Below the pieces are notes generated by a model. The model searched no databases, was not told the origin of the DNA, and worked only from the letters and a program-made list of their open reading frames with translations. A program made the position numbers and the translations under genes. Below, in pieces: positions 6,120 through 22,596 of a stretch of DNA of 33,021 nt. Source of the stretch: a virus. The number at the start of each line of letters is the position of its first letter. Within the stretch, counting starts at the first letter, position 1. The stretch is taken from IMG/VR virus record IMGVR_UViG_3300033151_000693, positions 1 through 33,021 of that record; one strand, 5' to 3'.

Positions 6120-6506
6120 ATGATAATTAAAAGTGATTTTGTAACAAATAGCTCTTCCACCGCATATATTATTTTAGATCTTGGAAGCAAACCAATGGAT
6201 TTTGCTACTATTTTGTGGCAAGAAGGACTTGAAAAATGGCAAATGAAAGTCAATGAAGTTTTCACTAAAGATCAAATAAATGAGTTTAAAAAATTTAATA
6301 ATTATAAAGAAGACCTGGATTGGATCGAAAACGTTACTGGTCCAAATAGTGGTATTTTAAGCTCGCTAGCATATAATACTGCTTTGATTCATTTACATGA
6401 AGGCCAAACAATTCACTATCTAGTGATTGATAGAGGTTATAATATATATAGATTAGTGGAAAAAGTACCACAACTTCAGATAATATATATAGATGGGGGC
6501 CATTGA
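6120..6506 (+). CDS. Small protein with KSDFVTNSSS N-terminal motif, copy 3
   Basis: This 128-residue protein starts MIIKSDFVTNSSSTAYII, again matching copies at 2021 and 2370 only over the first 18 residues. The rest includes QINEFKKFNNYKEDLDWIE and a C-terminal part with hydrophobic strands (HYLVIDRGYNIYRLVE, LQIIYIDGGH), so it is probably a small folded domain rather than a disordered peptide. Its TGA stop overlaps the ATG of the radical SAM gene by one base (TGATG), meaning the two are translationally coupled. That coupling is the best local hint that the NSSS family and the radical SAM enzyme belong together. No known function. Confidence 0.7.
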   Translation: MIIKSDFVTNSSSTAYIILDLGSKPMDFATILWQEGLEKWQMKVNEVFTKDQINEFKKFNNYKEDLDWIENVTGPNSGILSSLAYNTALIHLHEGQTIHYLVIDRGYNIYRLVEKVPQLQIIYIDGGH

Positions 6507-7555
6507 TGAATAAAATACATATAGTAAATTGGTTATTAACTCGAAAATGTAATTTGAGTTGTGACTATTGTGCAATTGTAAGAAACTATAAAAACAAACC
6601 AAAAGAATATCCAGACATGGACCATTATATAAAAAATGAAATGTCAACTAATTATATTATAAATATGTTAAGTTTATTTAAAAATCACAACTCAGATGCA
6701 TTTCATATATTCTATGGCGGCGAACCATTATTGCGAAAGGATTTACCAGAAATAATAAATTTTTGTAATAATAATAGTATTCATTATACAATTATTAGCA
6801 ATAATACGAAAGGAGTTCAACCGCTTTTTACTAAATTGTTTCATGAAGTAGAGTATATACAAGGGTTTACAAGTTCTGTTGATCCGGTATTTAATTCAAA
6901 TGAAGATGTAGGAGAAGATCGAGTTCTTAAAAGCATTGAAGGATTCAAGAGACTTAAAGAAATAAAAGATGCTGGTCTTGTAAAAGATGTTGTTGCAGAA
7001 ATAACTGTAATGAGATATAATGTGCAATATCTTTATGAGTTAGTAAAAAGTTTAAATGATGTTGGAATTAATAGCGATATTACATTTATTGATATTGCAA
7101 AGAATCCTTATTATGACTTTGCTAATATAAGTGATCCAGATTTGTTAGTTACTCGAGATGAAGCATTCCTTCCATTAAAGAACTTGATAGAAAGCGACTT
7201 TAATATTCATATGAAAAATAAGTTATTATCTAAAATATATAATTATGCATTACCATCAAATATGAATTGTGAGATTGATAAAAAATTACATAATGTTACA
7301 ATTGATGCTGATGGTTCAGTTAGATTATGTCTTCGTATAAGAGGTGTTTCAACTCCATCTCAAATAAAAGTTCAAAATCTATTTGATAAAAATGACATTA
7401 AACAAATCTCACATTTTGCTCATTTATGTATTATTAAAGATAAAGAAAAATATTGTCAATTATGTAATCATACTTGTCAATTGATGAGTAAAATAATTGA
7501 TGAAGAAAATTCTAGTCCGGATGAGTTGGTTCATTCAGATATAAGGGAGGGCTAA
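6506..7555 (+). CDS. Radical SAM protein with SPASM-like C-terminus
   Basis: This 349-residue protein has the radical SAM cluster motif CxxxCxxC at C15, C19, C22 (RKCNLSCDYC) and the GGEP motif (FYGGEPLL, near residue 71), which bind the 4Fe-4S cluster and SAM. The C-terminal third has a cysteine set of the SPASM/twitch kind: a cysteine before VTIDADGSVRLC, then CIIKDKEKYCQLCNHTC. SPASM enzymes typically hold auxiliary clusters and modify peptides or proteins. It is too long, and its C-terminus is wrong, for QueE, although QueD and FolE2 occur in this window. TTG at 6503 is an upstream alternative, but ATG 6506 behind GGGGG and overlapping the previous stop is preferred. The partner may be the NSSS-motif proteins. 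Confidence 0.85.
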   Translation: MNKIHIVNWLLTRKCNLSCDYCAIVRNYKNKPKEYPDMDHYIKNEMSTNYIINMLSLFKNHNSDAFHIFYGGEPLLRKDLPEIINFCNNNSIHYTIISNNTKGVQPLFTKLFHEVEYIQGFTSSVDPVFNSNEDVGEDRVLKSIEGFKRLKEIKDAGLVKDVVAEITVMRYNVQYLYELVKSLNDVGINSDITFIDIAKNPYYDFANISDPDLLVTRDEAFLPLKNLIESDFNIHMKNKLLSKIYNYALPSNMNCEIDKKLHNVTIDADGSVRLCLRIRGVSTPSQIKVQNLFDKNDIKQISHFAHLCIIKDKEKYCQLCNHTCQLMSKIIDEENSSPDELVHSDIREG

Positions 7556-7558
7556 ACT

Positions 7559-7885
7559 ATGCCTGAAAAGAAAGATGTAATAGATTCTGATATTATAATG
7601 TCTGCTGTTCAATTTTGGAAAAAAGTTTATGATGAAAAAGATGTTGTTATAAAGTTTATAAAACAAGATAGAACAGAAAGAATAATGAGATGTACTCTTG
7701 ATTTTACCAAAGTTCCAAAAAGAGATCATCCCAAAAGAGTTAATATTGAAAATATTTTGAAATTGATTCAAAAAAATAAAATTATGCATGTATATGATTT
7801 AGAAAAAATGGCATGGAGATCTGTTCCGTTTGATCGGGTTCAATGGATGGATACTAAAGATAGACGATATTTTGTAAAAAAATAA
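7559..7885 (+). CDS. Hypothetical protein, 108 residues
   Basis: This small basic protein has no motif I recognise. It begins MPEKKDVIDSDIIMSAVQFW and contains a run of beta-like segments (DVVIKFIKQDRTERIMRCTL) and later VYDLEKMAWRSVPFDRVQW. The pattern of a short strand set followed by a C-terminal WRSVPFDRV is reminiscent of small SH3-like or 'WYL-like' phage proteins that bind nucleic acid, but this is a guess. It starts three bases after the radical SAM stop, behind an AGGGAGG site within that gene's last codons. It is followed at 12 bases by another small gene. Coding status rests on the SD, spacing and open length. Confidence 0.6.
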   Translation: MPEKKDVIDSDIIMSAVQFWKKVYDEKDVVIKFIKQDRTERIMRCTLDFTKVPKRDHPKRVNIENILKLIQKNKIMHVYDLEKMAWRSVPFDRVQWMDTKDRRYFVKK

Positions 7886-7897
7886 GGAGAATGTCTA

Positions 7898-8257
7898 GTG
7901 GGAATTTTACAAGAATTGCTTAAAGAAATAAAAGGAGATGACAATACAGAGAAAATCAGAAAACTTTGTGATAAAATTGCTAAAGAAGAAGAAAATAATA
8001 TAAAAAATTTGTTGATGGTCCCAAAAGGACCTAATATATTTTTATCTTTAGAAGTTCCTGGAAGAACTACAAAAGAAAATGCATTTCTTATATTGGAACG
8101 AGAAAGCGAAGATAAGTATCTTTTGGTACTTTATATTACAATGACATGGGGAGAGAGTCGTTTAAAAAGACAAAAGGTTTGGGAGATAGATGATCATCGA
8201 CCAGAGAAAATTTTAACTGAATATGTGAAAAAATATAAATTTTTAAGAGGTGAATGA
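7898..8257 (+). CDS. Hypothetical protein, 119 residues, GTG start
   Basis: The reading frame opens at GTG 7898, 8 bases after AAGGAG (7884-7889). An out-of-frame ATG at 7891 lies within that spacer. The product begins with a charged helical region (LQELLKEIKGDDNTEKIRKL, KIAKEEENNIKN) followed by predicted strands (NIFLSLEVPG, NAFLILERE, KYLLVLYITMTWG) and ends KKYKFLRGE. No family is recognised. Its TGA stop overlaps the start of the 884-residue gene (ATGATG at 8254-8259), so it is coupled to the first gene of the ubiquitin-like cassette. It could be an accessory of that cassette, but nothing in the sequence proves it. Confidence 0.6.
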   Translation: MGILQELLKEIKGDDNTEKIRKLCDKIAKEEENNIKNLLMVPKGPNIFLSLEVPGRTTKENAFLILERESEDKYLLVLYITMTWGESRLKRQKVWEIDDHRPEKILTEYVKKYKFLRGE

Positions 8258-10908
8258 TGGCAGAAATACTTGAAGAAATAAGAATTAACTCTCAATTCTC
8301 ACAGTTAACAAAATCAGTATATGAAAAATCATTAAAAGAACCATCGATTCCAAGAATTAGAAAACAACATATAGAAACAAATACTTATTTAAAAAAAATC
8401 TCCAATAGATTTAACTCAGAAAACATACTTATGCCTCCAAATTGTCGTTATCTAGAAAAATTATCGAACGGTGGACATCTTGTAGTGATTGAAGAACCTC
8501 CTGCTTTAAGAACCATCAGAACTGATTTTGGAGAAATATCAAACGAATATGAAATGTTAAAAGCTAAAGGAAAAACAGAAGAATGGGGAATTGATAAGAA
8601 TTTATATGATTATGAAAAAATAATATATCCTGTCTCCTTTACATTAGCTCTCCCTTATGTTATCTTTATTAAAATATTTGACTCGAATAATAATGTTTTG
8701 TTAGGACAAGTATTTTTCAGAGTTGCTCGTCTTTCAGGTTTGGCAGATTATATTCTCAAAACTCCATTCACTAATATTTCTGACGAACAACATATCTGTT
8801 ATGGTGATAAGAACATTGAAAATCGCTCTTTAGATACAGCTATATCAGGTATTATAATGAAATTCTGGTCATCTAAATTTAACTCAGATTATACATATAA
8901 TTATAATGCATATAAAAAAGTACCATATGTTAATACACTTATTGAATGGCAATATCATTCTCAAACTGATCCAATGTTTATCTATACTGTTGACTGGCTT
9001 AAATATGAATGTAATTTACATCAATTAATTAAAAGAATTAAAACAGAATACGGATTTACTTCTACAGTAAATTTTGGTTATAAAGAATTATCAAGTATAT
9101 TTGTACAACCTATTGATACTGGCAAGAAAGAAGAAATCGGGTTGTCAACAAAGAAAAAATATAGTTTGTTTTATGATGTTGCTCAAGGTATGTATTTAGA
9201 TTCTGATTTTTTTATTCACGTTGGAGATCCCATTGAACTTAAAAATGGGAAAAAAGCATTTGTTGATTCATTTATTGGTTTCGCTAGTTCAGGTGTTATA
9301 TCTTATATTCAATTCAAAACTGAAGATGGACAAACATTTTTAGTAAAATATTCAAATAATACATCAGAATCACAACCACCGTATCTTATAAAAGCATTTA
9401 AGAAAGAACGATATGCAGAAAAGGGGATTCTTGCTAATGGAGTTGAGATTAAAGAAGATGATATTATTATAATTGATGTACCAGCAACTTCAACGAATCT
9501 CAATGAAGCTATTTATAAGAAAGTACACTATGTTAGAAAAAGTCGAGATGGAATTACAGAAGCTAAACTTGGAAATGACTTCTATATTCTGGAAAATACT
9601 ACTGGAAAAATTCTTGATATGGAAAATCCAGTGTATGATGGACTTGCATTAAAGAAAGGATCTAAGTATATTATTATAACATCTCCTTCAAGAGTTCCAC
9701 ACCACAAAGGATATCACGTAACTTTTGAAGGAATGTTAGTGGATGCCAAAAAGTTAAGGTTTGCTTTTAAGGATATTTATGATACGAGAAGATCACCAAT
9801 TACAATTTCATATGATCCAAAAAATGGAACTATAACGAATAGTAGATATAGATTATATGAAATCAAAAATACCAAAATAATGCCACCAGTATTTAGAATA
9901 GGAAGAAGTCTCTTATATTGCAAACGAGAAGTAGATACTCATATGTCATCTAAATTATATGAAAATGGTTTTGCATGGGGAACTATGGATGGAATTATTA
10001 CCGAACGTAATAGTCTAATATTAAAAGCAGATATCAAGCAAGTAGTTGAAAATTGTCTGTTAGACGATGGAACCAGATTAAAAATTGAAAGTTCTGATTT
10101 TGATATAGAATTTTGTATTGGGGATAAAGTTGTAGCAGCAGACTGGGAAAATCCAATCAATACATTGATAATTAAAACTATTCAAGGATTTAAAGTTGAT
10201 AAAACTAGTGGTTGTGTAGATTTCATATTAGCTGATAAAAATGATAATCTAACTGTTGTTAAATATATTGATGTTCGAGGTGATGCCGTCATTTTTACTG
10301 GAAGAATAAGGCACATCACTAACAAATTCGGTAAAGTTACATCAGGAACAAAAATTATTTCCAAAGAAGGTTTTATACCAAACTTTCCAAAGAAAGATGT
10401 TAATATTATTATTGGATTTATAACAGATAGTGGAGGAGAAGATCCTTTGGTATTGTGCTCTAATGGTTGTACATTATGGTATAGCGAAATGATAAAAAAC
10501 TTTATCAAAATTACAATGAAATCTAAAAAATGGAAAGATCTTCCACATGTTCCACTTGATGTTCAGAAAATAAAGATTCAACCAGGTGATTTAATTAATT
10601 GTAAAGGCGATTATAAAAATAAAGCTGGTTGGCTTGTTTGGTCGACTGGGTCAGGTATGCATAAAATTACAAATCTTAATACTTTATATAAATACCCAGA
10701 TTATTATCATTTAGATACATATATTATGTCTCAATCGCTTTTGGATTGTATACCAAATCCAAGATTACCAAAAAAAGATTTATTGGAAAAAGGGGTAGTT
10801 TCATCAATACCAAATTTTCATGGTTTGTTTATACAAAGTAAGGGTATGGATTTCAAGTTTATCAACGATGAAAGGAGTATATTATATGTTCAAGATTCAT
10901 ATAAATGA
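8254..10908 (+). CDS. Large protein with possible E2-like (PRTRC-B / Prok-E2_D-like) N-terminal region
   Basis: This 884-residue protein is the largest gene of the ubiquitin-like cassette. The N-terminal third contains PFTNISDEQHICYGD, with the cysteine at residue 182, followed about 25 residues later by FWSSKFNSDY. That order, P-x-x-N-(x)-G/E-x-x-C-x-G and then an aromatic F-x-S-x-F element, is what I remember of the prokaryotic E2-like families that accompany PRTRC ThiF and JAB proteins. The following 600 residues look beta-rich with repeated short strands and turns (GDPIELKNGKKAFVDSFIG, FCIGDKVVAADWENP, IQPGDLINCKG), suggesting several small barrel domains. Starts at 8254 and 8257 are both possible (ATGATG). 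It overlaps the JAMM gene by 23 bases. The E2 assignment is tentative; it may be a scaffold or substrate instead. Confidence 0.4.
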   Translation: MMAEILEEIRINSQFSQLTKSVYEKSLKEPSIPRIRKQHIETNTYLKKISNRFNSENILMPPNCRYLEKLSNGGHLVVIEEPPALRTIRTDFGEISNEYEMLKAKGKTEEWGIDKNLYDYEKIIYPVSFTLALPYVIFIKIFDSNNNVLLGQVFFRVARLSGLADYILKTPFTNISDEQHICYGDKNIENRSLDTAISGIIMKFWSSKFNSDYTYNYNAYKKVPYVNTLIEWQYHSQTDPMFIYTVDWLKYECNLHQLIKRIKTEYGFTSTVNFGYKELSSIFVQPIDTGKKEEIGLSTKKKYSLFYDVAQGMYLDSDFFIHVGDPIELKNGKKAFVDSFIGFASSGVISYIQFKTEDGQTFLVKYSNNTSESQPPYLIKAFKKERYAEKGILANGVEIKEDDIIIIDVPATSTNLNEAIYKKVHYVRKSRDGITEAKLGNDFYILENTTGKILDMENPVYDGLALKKGSKYIIITSPSRVPHHKGYHVTFEGMLVDAKKLRFAFKDIYDTRRSPITISYDPKNGTITNSRYRLYEIKNTKIMPPVFRIGRSLLYCKREVDTHMSSKLYENGFAWGTMDGIITERNSLILKADIKQVVENCLLDDGTRLKIESSDFDIEFCIGDKVVAADWENPINTLIIKTIQGFKVDKTSGCVDFILADKNDNLTVVKYIDVRGDAVIFTGRIRHITNKFGKVTSGTKIISKEGFIPNFPKKDVNIIIGFITDSGGEDPLVLCSNGCTLWYSEMIKNFIKITMKSKKWKDLPHVPLDVQKIKIQPGDLINCKGDYKNKAGWLVWSTGSGMHKITNLNTLYKYPDYYHLDTYIMSQSLLDCIPNPRLPKKDLLEKGVVSSIPNFHGLFIQSKGMDFKFINDERSILYVQDSYK

Positions 10909-12460
10909 TGGTCTTAATAAATTACCAGATGATGATATATATTATGTTATTGCAAAAGATGGAATTTATATAAAGAAAACATTAGGAGTAATGGACAGTT
11001 TGGTTCCCGTGAAAAATATATCTATATTAGAAGATATTAAAACAGTTGCAAGAATGAATATTAAAAAGATTCCTGCTGGACAATTTGCTCAAATCATATC
11101 ATTTTTTAAAGAAGTGTATGTGAAACATAGAGCAGAATGTATTGTAATATTATTTTATAATGAAGAAACTAAAACTTATAGAATTATTCCTCCAACACAA
11201 AAAGTATCTTCTGCAACAATAGACTATGATCGTGGACTGGTTTTAGAAGGGTGGACAATGGTTGGTGACATTCATAGTCATGCTGCAATGTCTGCTTTTC
11301 ACTCAGGAACTGATCATGATGATGAGCAATCATTTGATGGTCTTCATATAACGCTTGGAAATCTTGGTGATACTGATGTAAGTTTATCAGCATCAATTGT
11401 TTCAAACGGGCATAGGATCTTTATTGAGCCTGAGGAATATATAAATCGTTTAATTAAAACTAAAGATATAAATGAAAGTGAAATGAGACCAAATCGAACA
11501 GTATGGAAATATTGTCAAAAGGAAAAGAAGTTAGTGAAAGATATGGTTGCCTCATCTCGATTTGGAAGTACAACTTATCAAAGACTTGATAAACGATATA
11601 CAGTTAATATTTCAAAAAAATATTTTAGAACACCCAAAGGGTGGATGGATATGGTCGAATATAAAAGTTACTTCTATCAGCACAATTTACAACACTATCA
11701 AACAAATCAACAAAATATTAATAATTGGGAAAGTCTTTATGGTGGTGGTACTGATAATGAATGGGGATTTAATTATAACTCTAGTCTATGGAGACAATCA
11801 GGAAAAAAAGATTTAAAACTATTAGAGGCCCCAAAAGGAATCGAACCAAGTACAAATGATAATAAAGATGTCATTCCATGTACATCATGTAAGTTTAAGG
11901 ACTATAAAATTCTTTTGGAAACAAATGAAGTGGAAGAGACTGAATATTATTGTTGTGCTAAATGCGATTCTATATGGGAGGAGAGTTCGCTCTTGGATGG
12001 AGATAAGTGTCCAATTTGTACTACTGGAGATTTTCTATTTCCTTATGATGAGACCGACTTAAAAAATAACTATATTCCATCCGATAAGCATGATCATCTA
12101 TTTACAAAAGATGATCCTATTGAAATAAAGTCCGATTTTATAAAATGTGGTCACTGTGGTGAGACTTTTCATATGCATAATGGAGAAACAAAATGTCCAT
12201 TTTGTTATACAATATTAGGACCACAAAGTGTACAAGAGCAAGATAAAGAAGAACAAATGAGATCGGACTCCGGAGATTTTTTGGGTAAACACACAGAAGA
12301 GATTGATAAAGCAGCTCAAGAAGAAATAAATACATCTAAAAGTAATGTTGAAAGGATTCCAGATCCTTCTGAAAATCATTTACCCCTCCCGGAAAACTCA
12401 ACAAATGCATTTGGTTTAGCTAAAAAAATGATAGAACGAGTGCTTGGAAAGAGAGAGTAA
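10886..12460 (+). CDS. JAMM/JAB metallopeptidase (PRTRC protein A-like) with C-terminal zinc ribbons
   Basis: I start this gene at ATG 10886 because AAAGGAG at 10871-10877 precedes it; the open frame extends upstream to 10820 without an SD. The 524-residue product has a complete JAMM motif: E84 (RAEC), H130 and H132 (DIHSH), S140 and D143 (SGTD), i.e. HxH-x7-S-x2-D. The wording HSHAAMSAFHSGTDHDDE closely follows PRTRC system protein A as I remember it. Such peptidases cleave ubiquitin-like proteins from conjugates or process their tails. The C-terminal half adds cysteine pairs at 332-335, 356-360, 375-378, 421-424 and 437-440, at least two zinc-ribbon-type modules, then an acidic linker. Position next to E1 and Ubl genes supports a deconjugase role. 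Confidence 0.85.
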   Translation: MFKIHINDGLNKLPDDDIYYVIAKDGIYIKKTLGVMDSLVPVKNISILEDIKTVARMNIKKIPAGQFAQIISFFKEVYVKHRAECIVILFYNEETKTYRIIPPTQKVSSATIDYDRGLVLEGWTMVGDIHSHAAMSAFHSGTDHDDEQSFDGLHITLGNLGDTDVSLSASIVSNGHRIFIEPEEYINRLIKTKDINESEMRPNRTVWKYCQKEKKLVKDMVASSRFGSTTYQRLDKRYTVNISKKYFRTPKGWMDMVEYKSYFYQHNLQHYQTNQQNINNWESLYGGGTDNEWGFNYNSSLWRQSGKKDLKLLEAPKGIEPSTNDNKDVIPCTSCKFKDYKILLETNEVEETEYYCCAKCDSIWEESSLLDGDKCPICTTGDFLFPYDETDLKNNYIPSDKHDHLFTKDDPIEIKSDFIKCGHCGETFHMHNGETKCPFCYTILGPQSVQEQDKEEQMRSDSGDFLGKHTEEIDKAAQEEINTSKSNVERIPDPSENHLPLPENSTNAFGLAKKMIERVLGKRE

Positions 12461-12465
12461 AAATT

Positions 12466-13146
12466 ATGAATACTAATATCACTATTATCGGTCTTGGAGG
12501 AATTGGTTCTATCCTTATCGAAAGATTATGTCGATTCCTTAACTATTCAAATGATCTGAAAGCTAGCATCATTTTGGTAGATGGAGATGAATATGAACAA
12601 AAAAATTATGAAAGACAAGAGTTTCTTCAGATTGGTAATAAAGCAGAAGTTAAAGAAATGGAGTTAATAACAAAATACTCTCGTATTAGTTTTGGTGTTT
12701 TTCCTGCCTTCATAAATGAAACAAATATATCAGAAGTTGTTAAAGAAGGCACTATTGTATTTCTATGTGTAGATAATCACAAAACCAGAATGATTGTATC
12801 GAATTACTGCAAAGGTTTACAAAATGTTACTTTAATATCTGGCGGGAATGAATTTACTGACGGAAATGTACAAACCTATGTGAGAAAGAATGGTAAAGAT
12901 CTCACTCCAGATCTGTGCAAATATCACCCAGAAATTGAAAATCCTGACGATAAGTTACCTGAGGAAATGAGCTGCGAAGAACTATCTGAATCTGATCCTC
13001 AACTATACTTTACTAATTTAGGAGCTGCAACATTAATGTGTTGGGCATTTTATAACTCTGTTATAAAAGAAAATTACGAACGTTCGGAAATTTACTTTGA
13101 CATTCTTACTATGAATACAAATTCAAAAATAAGAGTAGTCGGGTAA
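12466..13146 (+). CDS. E1-like/ThiF adenylating protein (PRTRC ThiF-like)
   Basis: This 226-residue Rossmann protein has the ATP-binding GLGGIGS (G9, G11, G12, G14), acidic residues D39 and D41, and the N47-x2-R50-Q51 signature typical of ThiF/MoeB/E1 enzymes. Such enzymes adenylate the C-terminus of a ubiquitin-like protein and often take it over as a thioester. The segment PEEMSCEELSESDPQLYFTN matches what I recall of the PRTRC ThiF C-terminal part (SCS...dLF.N), and C170 in it is the best candidate for a thioester or zinc-related cysteine. It starts five bases after the JAMM stop and precedes the Ubl gene. It is compact: no FCCH or UFD-like domains as in eukaryotic E1. Confidence 0.85.
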   Translation: MNTNITIIGLGGIGSILIERLCRFLNYSNDLKASIILVDGDEYEQKNYERQEFLQIGNKAEVKEMELITKYSRISFGVFPAFINETNISEVVKEGTIVFLCVDNHKTRMIVSNYCKGLQNVTLISGGNEFTDGNVQTYVRKNGKDLTPDLCKYHPEIENPDDKLPEEMSCEELSESDPQLYFTNLGAATLMCWAFYNSVIKENYERSEIYFDILTMNTNSKIRVVG

Positions 13147-13186
13147 GTTAAAAAAAATCATTTGAAAAAAAGGAGAATGTGTAATT

Positions 13187-13675
13187 ATGGCTAGAAAAAA
13201 ATTCACGCGTGATCAACTCGAAGCTAAAACATCAAAAGAACTTAAAAGTATGTGTGTTTATGAACTAGACCTTCCAGGTTTGAGCAAGAAAACAAAAGAT
13301 GTCGTCATCAACGCTATTATGGCGAAATGCGGAGCTCCTGTAACAGCTTCAAAAACTGCTGCCGGTGCAACAGTTAAGAAATCACCTGGTGATGTAACAT
13401 CCATGTCATTCTCAGCTCATAGCGAATTGACAAAACCAGAGGCTGCCTTTGGTAAACGAACAACTACCACGATTCATGTTTCATGTGGTGCTTCATCAGG
13501 CAACTTCCCACTTGCCGGCCGTACTGTAAAACAGGTAGGTGAATTTCTCCGTGAAGTTCTAAATGTAGATCAGCTTTCTACCGGTCTTATAAATGGTAGA
13601 GAAGTTGGTGCCGATTATATCGTCAAAGAAGGAGATACTCTCGAGTTCTTGAAACCAGCAGGAAAAAAGGGATAA
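13187..13675 (+). CDS. Ubiquitin-like beta-grasp protein with N-terminal SAP/HeH-like region
   Basis: The 162-residue protein has two parts. Residues 7-48 (LEAKTSKELKSMCVYELDL, then KKTKDVVINAIMAK) look like a SAP or helix-extension-helix motif, often nucleic-acid binding. A flexible Ala/Thr/Ser linker follows. Residues 92-159 read like a beta-grasp Ubl: strand TTTIHVSCG, helix TVKQVGEFLREVL, then INGREVGADYIVKEGDTLEF, close to the ThiS/MoaD and PRTRC-C pattern, ending PAGKKG. The tail is GKKG rather than diglycine. AGGAG lies 11 bases upstream of the ATG. GC is about 42% by hand count against about 30% in neighbours, with more C-ending codons, and a strong terminator follows, so it is probably highly expressed. 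It is likely the substrate of the flanking E1-like proteins. Confidence 0.75.
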   Translation: MARKKFTRDQLEAKTSKELKSMCVYELDLPGLSKKTKDVVINAIMAKCGAPVTASKTAAGATVKKSPGDVTSMSFSAHSELTKPEAAFGKRTTTTIHVSCGASSGNFPLAGRTVKQVGEFLREVLNVDQLSTGLINGREVGADYIVKEGDTLEFLKPAGKKG

Positions 13676-13690
13676 ACATTTAGTCCCGAA

Positions 13691-13728
13691 AAGAGGGGAT
13701 CTCAACTAGAGGTCCCCTCTTTATTTTT
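13691..13728 (+). terminator. Rho-independent terminator after the Ubl gene
   Basis: AAGAGGGGA (13691-13699) pairs with TCCCCTCTT (13713-13721) around a 13-base loop, followed by a T-rich stretch (TTATTTTT). It is one of the strongest terminators in the window. It ends the transcript carrying the JAMM, E1 and Ubl genes, or at least reduces readthrough to the second E1 gene. Confidence 0.88.
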
Positions 13729-13759
13729 ACAAAAAGAATAAAAAGGAGACAATAATGAC

Positions 13760-14620
13760 GTGGTATATAAAACTATAACTGTAATTGGATTGGGAACTCT
13801 TGGTGGGTTCATAACGGATGCTATTTCAAACTCAGAAATTATTGAGAAAATTGAGATTATAGACCACGATATAGTTGAGACAAAGAATCTTAAAAATTCC
13901 ATATATAGACAAATTGATGTTGGCTTAGCAAAAACTGAAGCATTAAAAGATATAATTTTATCAAAAAATTCAAATACAAATGTGGATGTAAGAAGTGAAA
14001 AATACATTGAAGGTAAGACGATACTGTCAAAAAGTGATCTGGTTCTTGATTGTCGAGATATAACATATGATCGAACCTCAGAAATTGATGCAAGATTATA
14101 TATCTCATCCAGATACTTAATTGTAGATTGTCGTAAAAATGTTAAGTACACAAATAAAAGAGTAGGAAAATATATTGTTGAGCTATCAAAGGATGATTTA
14201 AGATATGCAGCATCAATCATATCAATGGCTATTCATAGTGGTACAATAACATCTTTGTTAAGGAGCAAATCAGTTCAAAAATATGAACTAGATTATGTAA
14301 AACATATTGATAACTACAAATGTGATTTATTATATGAAAATTTAATTGATGAAGAAAAATTTATAAATCTTCCAGATAAAATTGTACCAATAATAGAACT
14401 AAATAAGCTGTCAGATGTAAATGTCTTTTTGGGAAGTAAAGTTCTTCCAATAACTGAAAGAATAATTCCAAAAAATACATTACAAACCAGTGGAGATGTA
14501 ATTTTAAATTTAGCATCTGTAGCAACCAGTCAGTGTGATTTTAATAACTTTATAGTCTCATTATTTAAAGAAGGGAACCAAGTTTTTATTGAATTGATTC
14601 CAGAGACGGGAGCAGCATAG
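13760..14620 (+). CDS. Second E1-like/ThiF-family protein with extra C-terminal domain
   Basis: The 286-residue product has GLGTLGG (G10, G12, G15, G16), D35 and D37 (IIDHD), N43 and R50-Q51, followed by DVGLAK as in ThiF/E1 proteins, so it is a second adenylating-enzyme homologue in the cassette. About 130 C-terminal residues beyond the Rossmann part are not recognised; candidate cysteines are in LVLDCRD and LIVDCRK. The start is GTG 13760, 11 bases from AGGAG (13744-13748). An out-of-frame ATG at 13755 sits at a better distance but encodes only seven residues before a stop. The last base of its TAG stop is the first of the next gene's GTG. It may activate the same Ubl or have become a structural partner. 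Confidence 0.75.
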   Translation: MVYKTITVIGLGTLGGFITDAISNSEIIEKIEIIDHDIVETKNLKNSIYRQIDVGLAKTEALKDIILSKNSNTNVDVRSEKYIEGKTILSKSDLVLDCRDITYDRTSEIDARLYISSRYLIVDCRKNVKYTNKRVGKYIVELSKDDLRYAASIISMAIHSGTITSLLRSKSVQKYELDYVKHIDNYKCDLLYENLIDEEKFINLPDKIVPIIELNKLSDVNVFLGSKVLPITERIIPKNTLQTSGDVILNLASVATSQCDFNNFIVSLFKEGNQVFIELIPETGAA

Positions 14621-14958
14621 TGGATATAAATAATATTTTTATTTCTGATGTGTTTGTTCCAAATAAATTAATTTTTAAAAGTGAGCTTTATAAGATTTTA
14701 GAACTAGACAAAAAGTTTATAATAAGAGGATATAATATCAAAACTGTAAATGGTAAAATTGATATGTTAACTATAAAAAATCCACATCCAAATTGCAACC
14801 CAAAAACAGGAGAATTTTGTATTCCTCATTCACTGAGAAAACATGAGATAAATAAAAAAAATAAAATATTAATTGAAATTATGTTATGTTGTTTTAATTT
14901 AGATGACTGTTACTTTACGCCTTGGAATGAAATAAAATATACAAAACAAGAGGTATAG
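14620..14958 (+). CDS. Small E2-like conjugating protein
   Basis: This 112-residue protein contains HPNCNPKTGEFCIP (H56-P57-N58 and C67). Eukaryotic and bacterial E2 enzymes carry HPN followed by about seven residues, a glycine and then the catalytic cysteine with a hydrophobic residue after it (HPN...G.xCL). Here the gap is eight residues, a small difference. Strands upstream (KKFIIRGYNIKTV, KIDMLTIK) and a helix after the cysteine (NKILIEIMLCCFNLDD) agree with a reduced UBC fold, and FTPWNEI resembles the post-helix W/P region of E2s. The product is shorter than a full UBC domain (about 150 residues). It starts at GTG 14620, coupled to the second E1 gene. E1-E2 adjacency strengthens the call. 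Confidence 0.6.
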   Translation: MDINNIFISDVFVPNKLIFKSELYKILELDKKFIIRGYNIKTVNGKIDMLTIKNPHPNCNPKTGEFCIPHSLRKHEINKKNKILIEIMLCCFNLDDCYFTPWNEIKYTKQEV

Positions 14959-15391: not shown

Positions 15392-18100
15392 ATGCCAAAG
15401 ATATTAGATTATAACTCATTTTGTGATAATTTAGACGAAGTGACGTCTCTAAAAACATTCGGGAAGAAAAAGTTTCACCCAGAAGGGTTATTTTCTGAAC
15501 AGATTTTTGGACCAGTCAAAAACTATACATGTCAATGTGGTAGATATTATGGAATTTCACAAACTGGTAATATTTGTGATATATGTAAAGTAGATATTGT
15601 AAATAGTGATGTAAGAAGAAAACGTTTTGCAAAAATCACAATACCAGTGCCAGTTGTTAATCCATTATTCTATGACCTTCTTATTGAACTGGGTGGGAAA
15701 AACTTCAAGAAAGCTATTGATTCTCTAATGCGAAATGAAAAAAGCGTCTTATATAAATCTAATAACGATTATATGGTTACAGTAAATCCAGATGATGTCA
15801 TCCCCAAAGGAGAACAAGTTTGGGAACGAGCAGATGCTATTTATGAACTAGTTAGAGGCATTGCAGAAGATATGGTTGAAGAAAAAATTGAAGGATGGGA
15901 TTTAGTATTAAATAGCATTGATAGTTTGATGTTTGATAAAATAATAGTTCTTCCCCCTGATCTAAGACCAACTTCAAAAAGTTCAGGAAAAAATAAGCAA
16001 TTGATGGATAAAATAAATAGATATTATATCCAGATACTAACTAAAAAAGAAATAATGAAAGAAACTATCATTGATATTTATAAGGATAAGACTCTTTATT
16101 ATACTTATTTTAAACAACTTCAAAAAGATGTTAATGAATTATATTCCAGAATACTAGAAAAAATTGCAAAAAAAGAAGGGTTAATTAGAGGAAATATTCT
16201 GGGAAAGAGAATTGATTTTTCTGGACGAGCAGTTATAACACCTGATCCTACACTGACATTAGATGAGTGTAAATTACCATATCTTATGATATTAGAAATA
16301 TACAAACTCCCAATTGCTAAAAGAATTTTAGAAATGGGAAAATTTAAATTATTAAATCTAGCAATTGATTTTGTAGATCAATGTATTGATAATCAATCCC
16401 CAATATTATATAGTATATGTAATGATGTTACTAAAGACAAATACTGTATACTAAATAGACAACCATCTCTTCACAAATTAAGTATGCTTGGTTTTAAGAT
16501 AAAAATAACATTAGATCAAGTTATAAAAATCCATCCGTTATCTTGTCCTCCATTTAATGCAGATTTTGATGGAGATCAAATGGCTGTTTATATACCAATT
16601 ACAAATGATTGTGAAGAAGAAGTAAAAGAAAAAATTTCAATTAAATCAAATTTAAGTAGCCCAGCAAATGAAAGTTTAACAACAACACCATCTCAAGATA
16701 TTATTTTGGGAATTTACTATCTAACATCCCCAGAGGTTGCCAAAAAAGGAGAGAAAATTAAATATAAAGGTGAGTTTATTAACTGGGGACAAGTTGAATT
16801 TAACAAACAATTACCTAAGGATTATCCTCTAATTACAGAAGTTGTTAAAAATAAAGTTCTTTTAAGAATCCTTAATGATATTAAAAATAGATATTCTAGT
16901 GATATACTTATGAATGTATTGGATAATATTAAACTGATAGGATTTAAATATGCAACTTTATTTGGTTGTACCATGTCTTTACAGGATTGTTATGTACCGG
17001 AAGCGGAAAAACTAAAAAAAGAAGTATATAAACACAAAAGTACAAGAGATCAATTAATTGCTCTTTCTGATAAATCTTTAATTGAAGAAATCAAAAAAGA
17101 CTTCGCATATTCTTATATGATCGAGTCTGGTGCAAGAGGTAGTTGGGATCAAGTAAAACAAATGATTTTAACAAGAGGATTTATCTCAAACTTTGATGGC
17201 GAGATATTACCATACCCAATTAAAAACTCATTGATTGATGGATTAAACCAAGAGGAGTTTTTCTTTTCAACATATGGATGTCGTAAAGGGCTTCTTGATG
17301 TTGCTTTAAATACTGGCACATCTGGGTATCTATCAAGAAAATTAATTTTTACATGTGCAAACCTCCAAATTGATGAAAATATTGAAGATTGTGGTACTAA
17401 AGATCTTCTAGAAATAGATGTTAATACAAAGCGAAAAGCAAGAATGTTAGTCAATAGATATCATGTTATTAATGATGAACTTCAAAAAATTACATTGGAA
17501 AATTACAAAGATTTTATTGGAAAATATGTTTATGTTCGAAGTCCAATTCTATGTAAAAATCCAAAAATATGCCATACATGTTATGGTGATTTACATAAAA
17601 ATCTTAACAGTCGTTTCATTGGTATTTTAGCAGCACAAACCCTTGGTGAACGAGGAACACAACTTGTATTGAGAACTTTTCATACATCTGGTTCAGCTGT
17701 AATTAAGGGCGAAGAAAATCAAGATGAATCCATGAGACAACGAGATATTATTGGAGATCTTGCTTCAGTTTCAAAACTATTACATAAATTTAAAGGAAAA
17801 ACATATACAGATATAGTTAACGGACTATTTGACATATATGATAAAGATATATATCATGTCCATTTTGAATGTGTAGTTTCACAATTGATGTGGAAAAATC
17901 ATATAAAATGGAGATTACTACCAGATAGAGAAAAGGTTTCTCCTGATTTCTATTCTATACAAAGTGTGCCAAATAAAGAGAGTTGGGTTTTAGCAATGGC
18001 ATTCTCAAATCCAAAAAGAGCAATTCTTCAAGGCATTTTATATGAAGGAAGATACTCTGGTGTAATGGATAAGATCTTAAAAGGAGAAAAAATTAGATGA
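15392..18100 (+). CDS. rpoC: DNA-directed RNA polymerase beta' subunit (single chain)
   Basis: This 902-residue protein is a bacterial-type beta' subunit. It has the N-terminal zinc site CQCGRYYG...CDIC (C47, C49, C62, C65), the catalytic loop NADFDGDQMAV with D391, D393 and D395 holding Mg2+, and the trigger-loop region LRTFHTSGSA near residue 761. The second zinc site is formed by the cysteine in EDCGTKD and by CKNPKICHTC. It is shorter than bacterial beta' (about 1200-1400) and ends soon after the trigger loop, lacking long lineage-specific insertions. The chain is intact, unlike the split beta' of phiKZ-like phages. It overlaps the next gene by four bases (ATGA). It should form phage RNA polymerase with the beta subunit encoded at 18291. 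Confidence 0.95.
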   Translation: MPKILDYNSFCDNLDEVTSLKTFGKKKFHPEGLFSEQIFGPVKNYTCQCGRYYGISQTGNICDICKVDIVNSDVRRKRFAKITIPVPVVNPLFYDLLIELGGKNFKKAIDSLMRNEKSVLYKSNNDYMVTVNPDDVIPKGEQVWERADAIYELVRGIAEDMVEEKIEGWDLVLNSIDSLMFDKIIVLPPDLRPTSKSSGKNKQLMDKINRYYIQILTKKEIMKETIIDIYKDKTLYYTYFKQLQKDVNELYSRILEKIAKKEGLIRGNILGKRIDFSGRAVITPDPTLTLDECKLPYLMILEIYKLPIAKRILEMGKFKLLNLAIDFVDQCIDNQSPILYSICNDVTKDKYCILNRQPSLHKLSMLGFKIKITLDQVIKIHPLSCPPFNADFDGDQMAVYIPITNDCEEEVKEKISIKSNLSSPANESLTTTPSQDIILGIYYLTSPEVAKKGEKIKYKGEFINWGQVEFNKQLPKDYPLITEVVKNKVLLRILNDIKNRYSSDILMNVLDNIKLIGFKYATLFGCTMSLQDCYVPEAEKLKKEVYKHKSTRDQLIALSDKSLIEEIKKDFAYSYMIESGARGSWDQVKQMILTRGFISNFDGEILPYPIKNSLIDGLNQEEFFFSTYGCRKGLLDVALNTGTSGYLSRKLIFTCANLQIDENIEDCGTKDLLEIDVNTKRKARMLVNRYHVINDELQKITLENYKDFIGKYVYVRSPILCKNPKICHTCYGDLHKNLNSRFIGILAAQTLGERGTQLVLRTFHTSGSAVIKGEENQDESMRQRDIIGDLASVSKLLHKFKGKTYTDIVNGLFDIYDKDIYHVHFECVVSQLMWKNHIKWRLLPDREKVSPDFYSIQSVPNKESWVLAMAFSNPKRAILQGILYEGRYSGVMDKILKGEKIR

Positions 18101-21753: not shown

Positions 21754-22596
21754 ATGGAATGTTTACCAGATATACAATGTGAGGAACCTAATATTGCTAT
21801 TCCCATCTGTCAAGTTGGAGTTGAGAATGTTGAAGTTCCGTTTAGTTTAGAACTTAAATCTGGAGGTTTTTATCAGCTAAGTGCAAACGTATCTATGCGA
21901 ACAGATTTGGATGAAAAAACTAAAGGAATATCAATGTCTCGACTCCTCTTGACATTAAAACCATATTTAGATTTACCTTTAAAATGTAAACTTATTAAAC
22001 AAATACTTGAAGATTTAAAAAATAATATTGGCAGTACATCAAGTTTTATGAAGTTTGAATTTCGCATGCCGCTTAAAAAGAAATCAATTAAGTCAGATAA
22101 TGAGTTCCCAATTTATTATAAATGTAGATTTGAAGGTCAACTCTATGAAACAGAATTTAGATTTTTTCAAGGAGTTGAAATTCAATATGCATCATATTGT
22201 CCTTGTTCTGCAGAACTATGCGGTCATTTATCTGACAATAATAGTAAAGGATTTCCACATAACCAAAGATCATATGCTGACATTTTAGTTGAAGTAAAAG
22301 AATCTAATTATGTATGGCTTGAAGATATTATTGAAGCAGTTGAATCAAATATTAAAACTCTACCATACCCAGTAATAAAAAGAGTTGATGAGCAAGAGAT
22401 TGCTAGAATTGCAGCAGAAAATCCATTATTTGTTGAAGATGCAATTAGATTAATTTCTAGTTCATTAGATGGAATGTCTGTTCTTCATGACTGGATTGTC
22501 AAATGTAGTCATGAAGAATCCATTCATACATCCGAAGCTATTGCAATTAATTGGAAAGGGGTAAGGGAAGGGTTTGATGGTAAGAGATATTTATAA
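21754..22596 (+). CDS. folE2: GTP cyclohydrolase FolE2 (type IB)
   Basis: This 280-residue protein matches FolE2, the GTP cyclohydrolase of the GCYH-IB family that turns GTP into 7,8-dihydroneopterin triphosphate. The signature SYCPCSAELCGHLSD (C149 and C151) is followed by HNQRS near residue 169, as in FolE2 where the CPCS cysteine is catalytic and the metal is flexible. The start follows AAGGGGGAA. The product feeds QueD at 196-618, so two consecutive steps to 6-carboxytetrahydropterin are encoded here, though 21 kb apart. QueE and QueC are not found in the window. Use for 7-deazaguanine DNA modification or for tRNA queuosine are both possible; folate synthesis is the less likely alternative. 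Confidence 0.9.
   Translation: MECLPDIQCEEPNIAIPICQVGVENVEVPFSLELKSGGFYQLSANVSMRTDLDEKTKGISMSRLLLTLKPYLDLPLKCKLIKQILEDLKNNIGSTSSFMKFEFRMPLKKKSIKSDNEFPIYYKCRFEGQLYETEFRFFQGVEIQYASYCPCSAELCGHLSDNNSKGFPHNQRSYADILVEVKESNYVWLEDIIEAVESNIKTLPYPVIKRVDEQEIARIAAENPLFVEDAIRLISSSLDGMSVLHDWIVKCSHEESIHTSEAIAINWKGVREGFDGKRYL

Follow-up and report, generated by a model that had tools for sequence, protein, structure and literature searches.

A PRTRC-like operon type (6d), and in tail clusters a Ub-like/JAB pair, were described by Iyer et al. (2006; PMC1779556). The PRTRC plasmid cassette encodes an E2 of family D, a JAB protein and a ThiF protein, in that order, together with a ubiquitin-like protein (Ubl) ending in KG. 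E1, E2 and JAB chemistry is also used by CBASS Cap2/Cap3, where the conjugated protein, cGAS, has a conserved C-terminal Gly or Ala (PMC10097602). Bacterial systems of the Ubl type act against phages (PMC10097602; Hor et al., 2024, as cited in PMC12660748). In phages, among the records compared, simpler PRTRC-like sets with adjacent E2-D, JAB and ThiF genes occur in Salmonella phage Arash, Bacillus phage KLEB27-3 and Vibrio phage D69. In one survey of jumbo phages (PMC7824862) JAB, E1-like, E2-like, PRTRC and ThiF are absent from the main text, and another (PMC7162821) makes no mention of ubiquitin.

The stretch of DNA analyzed here (the window) is the IMG/VR virus record IMGVR_UViG_3300033151_000693, 33,021 nt in length. 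Based on its open reading frames, six genes on the + strand, in the order E2B, JAMM, ThiF1, Ubl, ThiF2 and p112, fill positions 8254-14958 with short gaps or overlaps between them. Together they resemble a complete ubiquitin-like gene set, putatively comprising a tag protein, two activating and two conjugating enzymes, and a tag-removing protease. The E1, E2, Ubl and JAB classes are all encoded together with their catalytic residues, and these positions hardly vary among dozens of divergent relatives; the element with the weakest support is the Ubl fold. A previous sequence-only reading had proposed a phage-encoded Ubl conjugation cassette with a PRTRC-like JAMM and first E1 at this place, and the proposal is backed by the sequence evidence given below. 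All of the proteins it named are open reading frames there, but the E2 domain of the 884-aa protein had been overlooked and the cassette is larger than was claimed. The two-E1 gene order, which had been called unfamiliar, was likewise absent from the literature searched; since the search covered open-licence papers only, a prior description elsewhere is possible.

Relationship of the cassette to PRTRC and CBASS systems

E2B, JAMM and ThiF1 keep the B-A-ThiF order, as in a PRTRC plasmid (L062). Comparison with the PRTRC models gave 51.3 bits for PRTRC_A (1e-13; cut-off 101.8), 14.8 for PRTRC_B (cut-off 131.45) and 33 for PRTRC_ThiF (cut-off 144.75), indicating homology, but with all three scores under the curated cut-offs. 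Thus, as far as model scores can tell, E2B, JAMM and ThiF1 are homologous to PRTRC proteins and lie outside the curated families. Unlike the plasmid cassette, the window has an E2B that is nearly four times longer, ThiF2 and p112 as additional genes, and a Ubl with an N-terminal Rho_N domain that is not recognized by the PRTRC_C model (the positive controls were also unmatched). When this Ubl was compared by profile with PRTRC_C-like proteins, nothing significant was seen outside the tail, in a small profile set that included one out-of-frame Arash sequence. ParB gave no match over cut-off in six records, and no PRTRC_D was found in the large relatives, in a search without positive control.

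The simpler sets of Arash, KLEB27-3 and D69 differ from the window in that no ThiF2 or p112 was found in the stretches examined, and identity is about 30-40% where the proteins can be aligned. In Arash (L058), an unannotated Ubl-like ORF ending in RTGTKG was observed at 107-304, with the annotated CDS (102-320) in another frame. In contrast to CBASS Cap2/Cap3, the E1 and E2 of the window are separate proteins and a dedicated Ubl is present; no CD-NTase or effector was detected among the cassette genes and the window neighbours scanned.

E2B, JAMM, ThiF1 and Ubl

E2B (8254..10908, + strand; 884 aa) has an N-terminal Prok-E2_D/PRTRC_B-like E2 domain, followed by about 600 aa that are conserved in the lineage and of unknown fold. 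The N-terminus matched Prok-E2_D in 15 of 17 relatives (best 3.7e-6), and profile-profile comparison with the E2-D proteins of plasmids and cultured phages gave 97.4% probability over 148 columns. The predicted active-site cysteine, Cys182 (codon 8797..8799, +), is invariant (48/48); this and the following counts of catalytic positions were made on the first search set (48-55 sequences), including only sequences that span each site. Internal repeats were considered for the C-terminal region, and none was significant by profile comparison. A second E2B-like ORF lies upstream of E2B in two relatives (L046, 4279-6291; L048, 3907-6180).

The start of the JAMM gene (10886..12460, +) overlaps the E2B stop. 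Its product is a PRTRC_A-like JAMM/JAB metalloprotease that scored above the family cut-off with Pfam Prok-JAB (1.2e-6, 28.8 bits), and it consists of a core of about 200 aa followed by a variable tail that is rich in Cys and has CxxC pairs like those of zinc ribbons. The complete JAMM motif noted in the earlier reading, E84 ... H130xH132 ... S140xxD143 (11135..11314, +; numbered from the Met at 10886), was invariant in a 17-row alignment, and all five residues were retained in 54/54 relatives. Likewise, both proteins previously proposed as ThiF/E1 proteins matched Pfam ThiF, ThiF1 at 1.4e-17 and ThiF2 at 4e-14. ThiF1 (12466..13146, +) is a PRTRC-type E1 in which alignment with MoeB identified the adenylation residues R50, K59 and D103 and a predicted thioester cysteine, Cys170 (codon 12973..12975, +), near the position of MoeB Cys187; each of the four residues was present in 55/55 sequences.

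The Ubl (13187..13675, +) appears to consist of an N-terminal Rho_N/SAP-like helical domain, a linker and a C-terminal beta-grasp domain. Rho_N was matched in 16 of 17 members (best 1.5e-5), whereas support for the C-terminal domain came from TGS (16/17, best 6e-4) and ThiS (12/17, best 7e-4), each weak alone. The GKKG end reported earlier for this protein is as described, but the beta-grasp fold reported with it has no support beyond these Pfam matches; without a structural model, and with no solved beta-grasp structure significantly matched, its assignment remains weak. The C-terminal tail (13661..13672, +; GKKG in the window, GxKG in the family) is itself invariant at G159, K161 and G162 (53/53) and is followed in relatives by 0-9 extra residues. 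Among 67 distinct proteins, 40 stop at GxKG and about a third carry an extension of 1-9 residues, which is a single Cys in 16 and otherwise R, F, YK, DRKGC, VILTK, IDVGL or IIGTLLKKC; one further Ubl (L032) also ends in GSKGC. An invariant Gly followed by a stub that varies is the pattern expected if JAMM trims a precursor. Among plasmid relatives the tail is KSKG in L062 and AGTKG at the end of each tandem Ubl in L064, where a single gene (2439-2780) contains two head-to-tail Ubl repeats (Prok_Ub, 1.1e-4).

The +Cys extension recalls JAMM-trimmed sulfur carriers such as QbsE, and its frequency after the terminal Gly, the ThiF/MoeB-like character of the E1s and the presence of radical SAM, PTPS and FolE2 genes nearby would all suit a role of the Ubl in sulfur transfer. 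In such a role the trimmed Ubl would be thiocarboxylated by an E1 and supply the sulfur of a modified base or cofactor, a step in which the radical SAM neighbour might take part. Two E2-like proteins with invariant cysteines would be left unexplained by sulfur transfer, and the PRTRC-like ancestry of E2B, JAMM and ThiF1 also speaks against this role. Moreover, a sulfur carrier needs a donor, and searches of five relatives of 223-312 kb, with controls that worked, turned up neither rhodanese nor class V aminotransferase (cysteine desulfurase family). Although host enzymes could still supply sulfur, the lack of a donor in these five relatives weighs against this role, which we consider very unlikely.

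ThiF2 and p112

ThiF2 (13760..14620, +) is a second E1-like protein that lacks the catalytic-Cys loop and whose R50/Q51 positions vary among relatives. The AlphaFold model (pLDDT 88) has an E1 fold, with PDB matches to PaaA, AclA, Cap2, ThiF, MccB and UBA5 at 1e-8 to 1e-7; the name AclA was attached in the fold search to 9EGB, and no paper was found for the 9EGB/9EGC relatives. The C-terminal domain and tail, ending in ETGAA (14414..14617, +), are modelled as strand-strand-helix-strand-strand. This topology is compatible with a beta-grasp domain, which has not been shown. Homology of this domain to the Ubl was considered as well and was not supported, the profile comparison being not significant. 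Of 65 distinct ThiF2 proteins, 64 end in Ala, which recalls the Gly/Ala end of the conjugated cGAS of CBASS (PMC10097602).

The p112 gene (14620..14958, +) overlaps the ThiF2 stop and encodes a minimal E2-like protein of 112 aa. Its HPN...C active-site motif (14785..14820, +), also noted in the earlier reading, was invariant in the first 17 sequences, with H56, N58 and C67 each conserved in 51/51; a few divergent p112 proteins in the wider set depart from HPN (e.g., HPH). The AlphaFold model (pLDDT 94) returned E2 enzymes for all of its ten best PDB fold matches, but these were statistically weak (E only about 0.2-0.8, TM about 0.3-0.4); the E2-like identity of p112 rests on motif, predicted topology and weak fold scores. 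Search of a viral fold library gave no useful match for p112. Because its profile comparison with the E2-D family was not significant, the two E2-like proteins of the cassette are not shown to be close.

A viral contig (L145) resembles the window in having an HPN...C E2-like protein and a ThiF2-like E1 beside an RNA polymerase gene, but it has no PRTRC-type ThiF1 or E2-D, and its candidate Ubl and JAB score weakly. In a tree of E1 domains, ThiF1 was placed with the PRTRC ThiF proteins of plasmids and phages and ThiF2 with the L145 E1, the dividing branch having values of 97/95; MoeB fell on the ThiF2 side, and several branches were long. By profile comparison the L145 E1 was matched by ThiF2 at E 5e-14 vs 3e-6 for ThiF1, and p112 matched the L145 HPN...C protein over its full length (E 2.6e-5, 90 columns). 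ThiF1 thus belongs with the PRTRC E1s but ThiF2 with an E1 from another phage system, so that two E1-E2 pairs come together in this cassette. In addition, one relative (L126) has retained no cassette genes except ThiF2 and p112, in syntenic position. Together, these sequence relationships are evidence that ThiF2 and the HPN...C protein may be regarded as a second, separable E1-E2 pair. A stronger version, in which the cassette would run two independent E1-E2 cascades and ThiF2 itself would be the modifier of the second, through an activated and conjugated C-terminal Ala, rests on analogy and seems to us unlikely. As a separate observation, the candidate set of L145 (907-4896) consists of a possible-HTH protein with a KGA end, the HPN...C protein, the ThiF2-like E1 and a JAB-like protein.

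Distribution, genomic setting and proposed function

All six genes, in the same order and beside RNA polymerase, were found in about 67 IMG/VR contigs among the matches listed, with lengths up to 312 kb; this figure is a count over two search tables and includes some near-duplicates. A scan of viral contigs with a ThiF1 profile yielded 54 loci, 48 of which have the six genes in order; most of the remaining loci are truncated or divergent. So that selection did not depend on the cassette itself, RNA polymerase beta' served as bait, and the best 80 of 437 matches provided 60 loci with 8 kb or more of upstream sequence. The results showed that all six genes were present in 55/60 of these loci. 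The exceptions were one locus without a recognisable E2B (L140), L126 with only ThiF2 and p112, two with no cassette gene (L129 and L143), and L145 with its different set. Given that the bait was limited to the best 80 of 437 matches, the result speaks for the near lineage, in which the RNA polymerase is mostly at least 51% identical. A ThiF1 scan of 84,980 prokaryote species genomes gave no match, but it used only two short peptide patterns and could have missed distant relatives; a phage search with E2B also gave no match. The dN/dS values, determined against two relatives, were 0.09-0.34 for all six genes; together with the recurring gene order, they place the cassette beyond chance. In many relatives, recurrent extra genes separate Ubl from ThiF2 (e.g., L005, 11126-11758), among them a family of about 190 aa and another of about 80 aa, and in L048 Ubl and ThiF2 are in one reading frame (10721-11947).

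The cassette is flanked upstream by a WYL_2 (Sm-like SH3-barrel) gene (7559..7885, +; Pfam WYL_2 1.6e-5, just under cut-off), which is syntenic in most relatives, and downstream by the RNA polymerase beta' gene (15392..18100, +; Pfam RNA_pol_Rpb1 domains), which is syntenic in relatives. RNA polymerase, SbcC-like, helicase and radical SAM genes, and not tail genes, are the neighbours of the cassette in the window lineage. This setting bears on whether the Ubl or JAMM might act on structural proteins during virion maturation, a role that Iyer et al. (2006; PMC1779556) suggested for the Ub-like TAPI and the JAB protein in lambdoid tail clusters. In Arash, tail genes are found close to the E2-D and ThiF genes, whose products are annotated as structural proteins; that label may be automatic, and the location of the window-lineage cassette among RNA polymerase and DNA-handling genes counts against such a role. 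It suits Arash better than the window lineage, and we give it only a small chance.

As phages are targets of bacterial Ubl-type systems, a set carried by a phage could serve to counter these, either by disturbing host Bil or CBASS Cap2/Cap3 or by tagging host defence proteins. Counter-defence genes tend to be patchy, whereas this cassette has a fixed place and kept catalytic residues in 55/60 loci from the best 80 of 437 matches, and a decoy would not need the full catalytic set. That the cassette is nearly universal in the lineage, with fixed synteny, speaks against a counter-Bil role that is purely accessory, although such a role is still possible; we find counter-defence doubtful, and most likely the cassette serves the core biology of these jumbo phages instead of being an accessory island for counter-defence. 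Both counter-defence and virion maturation are purposes, and neither excludes conjugation chemistry.

We consider it probable, in the absence of biochemistry, that the cassette is a self-contained, reversible Ubl protein-conjugation system in the core genome of this jumbo-phage lineage. The Ubl precursor, where extended, would be trimmed by JAMM to the GxKG end; the terminal Gly would be adenylated by ThiF1 and the Ubl taken onto Cys170, followed by transfer to an E2 cysteine, for which E2B Cys182 is the expected partner. A target lysine would then receive the Ubl, and with it the nucleic-acid-binding Rho_N/SAP-like domain, until JAMM takes the Ubl off. ThiF2 and p112, as a second E1-E2 pair of different origin, might act on the same Ubl or on the C-terminal tail of ThiF2. 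Early-infection phage proteins would be the likeliest targets, with the neighbouring RNA polymerase as first candidate; the link to RNA polymerase is gene adjacency only, and the model is least certain about what the target is. While genes, domains, residue and tail conservation, synteny and E1 ancestry are results of the analysis, every chemical step, target and purpose is inferred from them. ClpP was sought as a protease partner and was not found in six records; a proteasome/HslV-like match was seen in one large relative only (G002, the contig of L028; 43161-43673).

If the model is correct, bacterial viruses own a complete reversible protein-tagging system, in the jumbo-phage core and positionally tied to RNA polymerase, and the uncharacterised PRTRC family gains a biological setting. 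The analysis suggests that very large bacterial viruses may run their own reversible protein tagging during infection, an inference made without any demonstration of conjugation chemistry; this chemistry can already be tested in cultured phages (Arash, KLEB27-3), which have simpler relatives of the system.

Other features of the window were also recorded. The radical SAM gene (6503-7555) is conserved beside the cassette, and its best sub-cut-off matches are prokaryotic viperin models. The PTPS gene (196-618) and the type I GTP cyclohydrolase (FolE2) gene (21754-22596) suggest a 7-deazaguanine-type pathway. Finally, a short N-terminal motif, MKIKxDF(V/I)TNSSST, is shared by proteins whose bodies are otherwise different, including those of two window ORFs (2021-2365 and 6120-6506), and it was matched by 70 ORFs in 47 loci.
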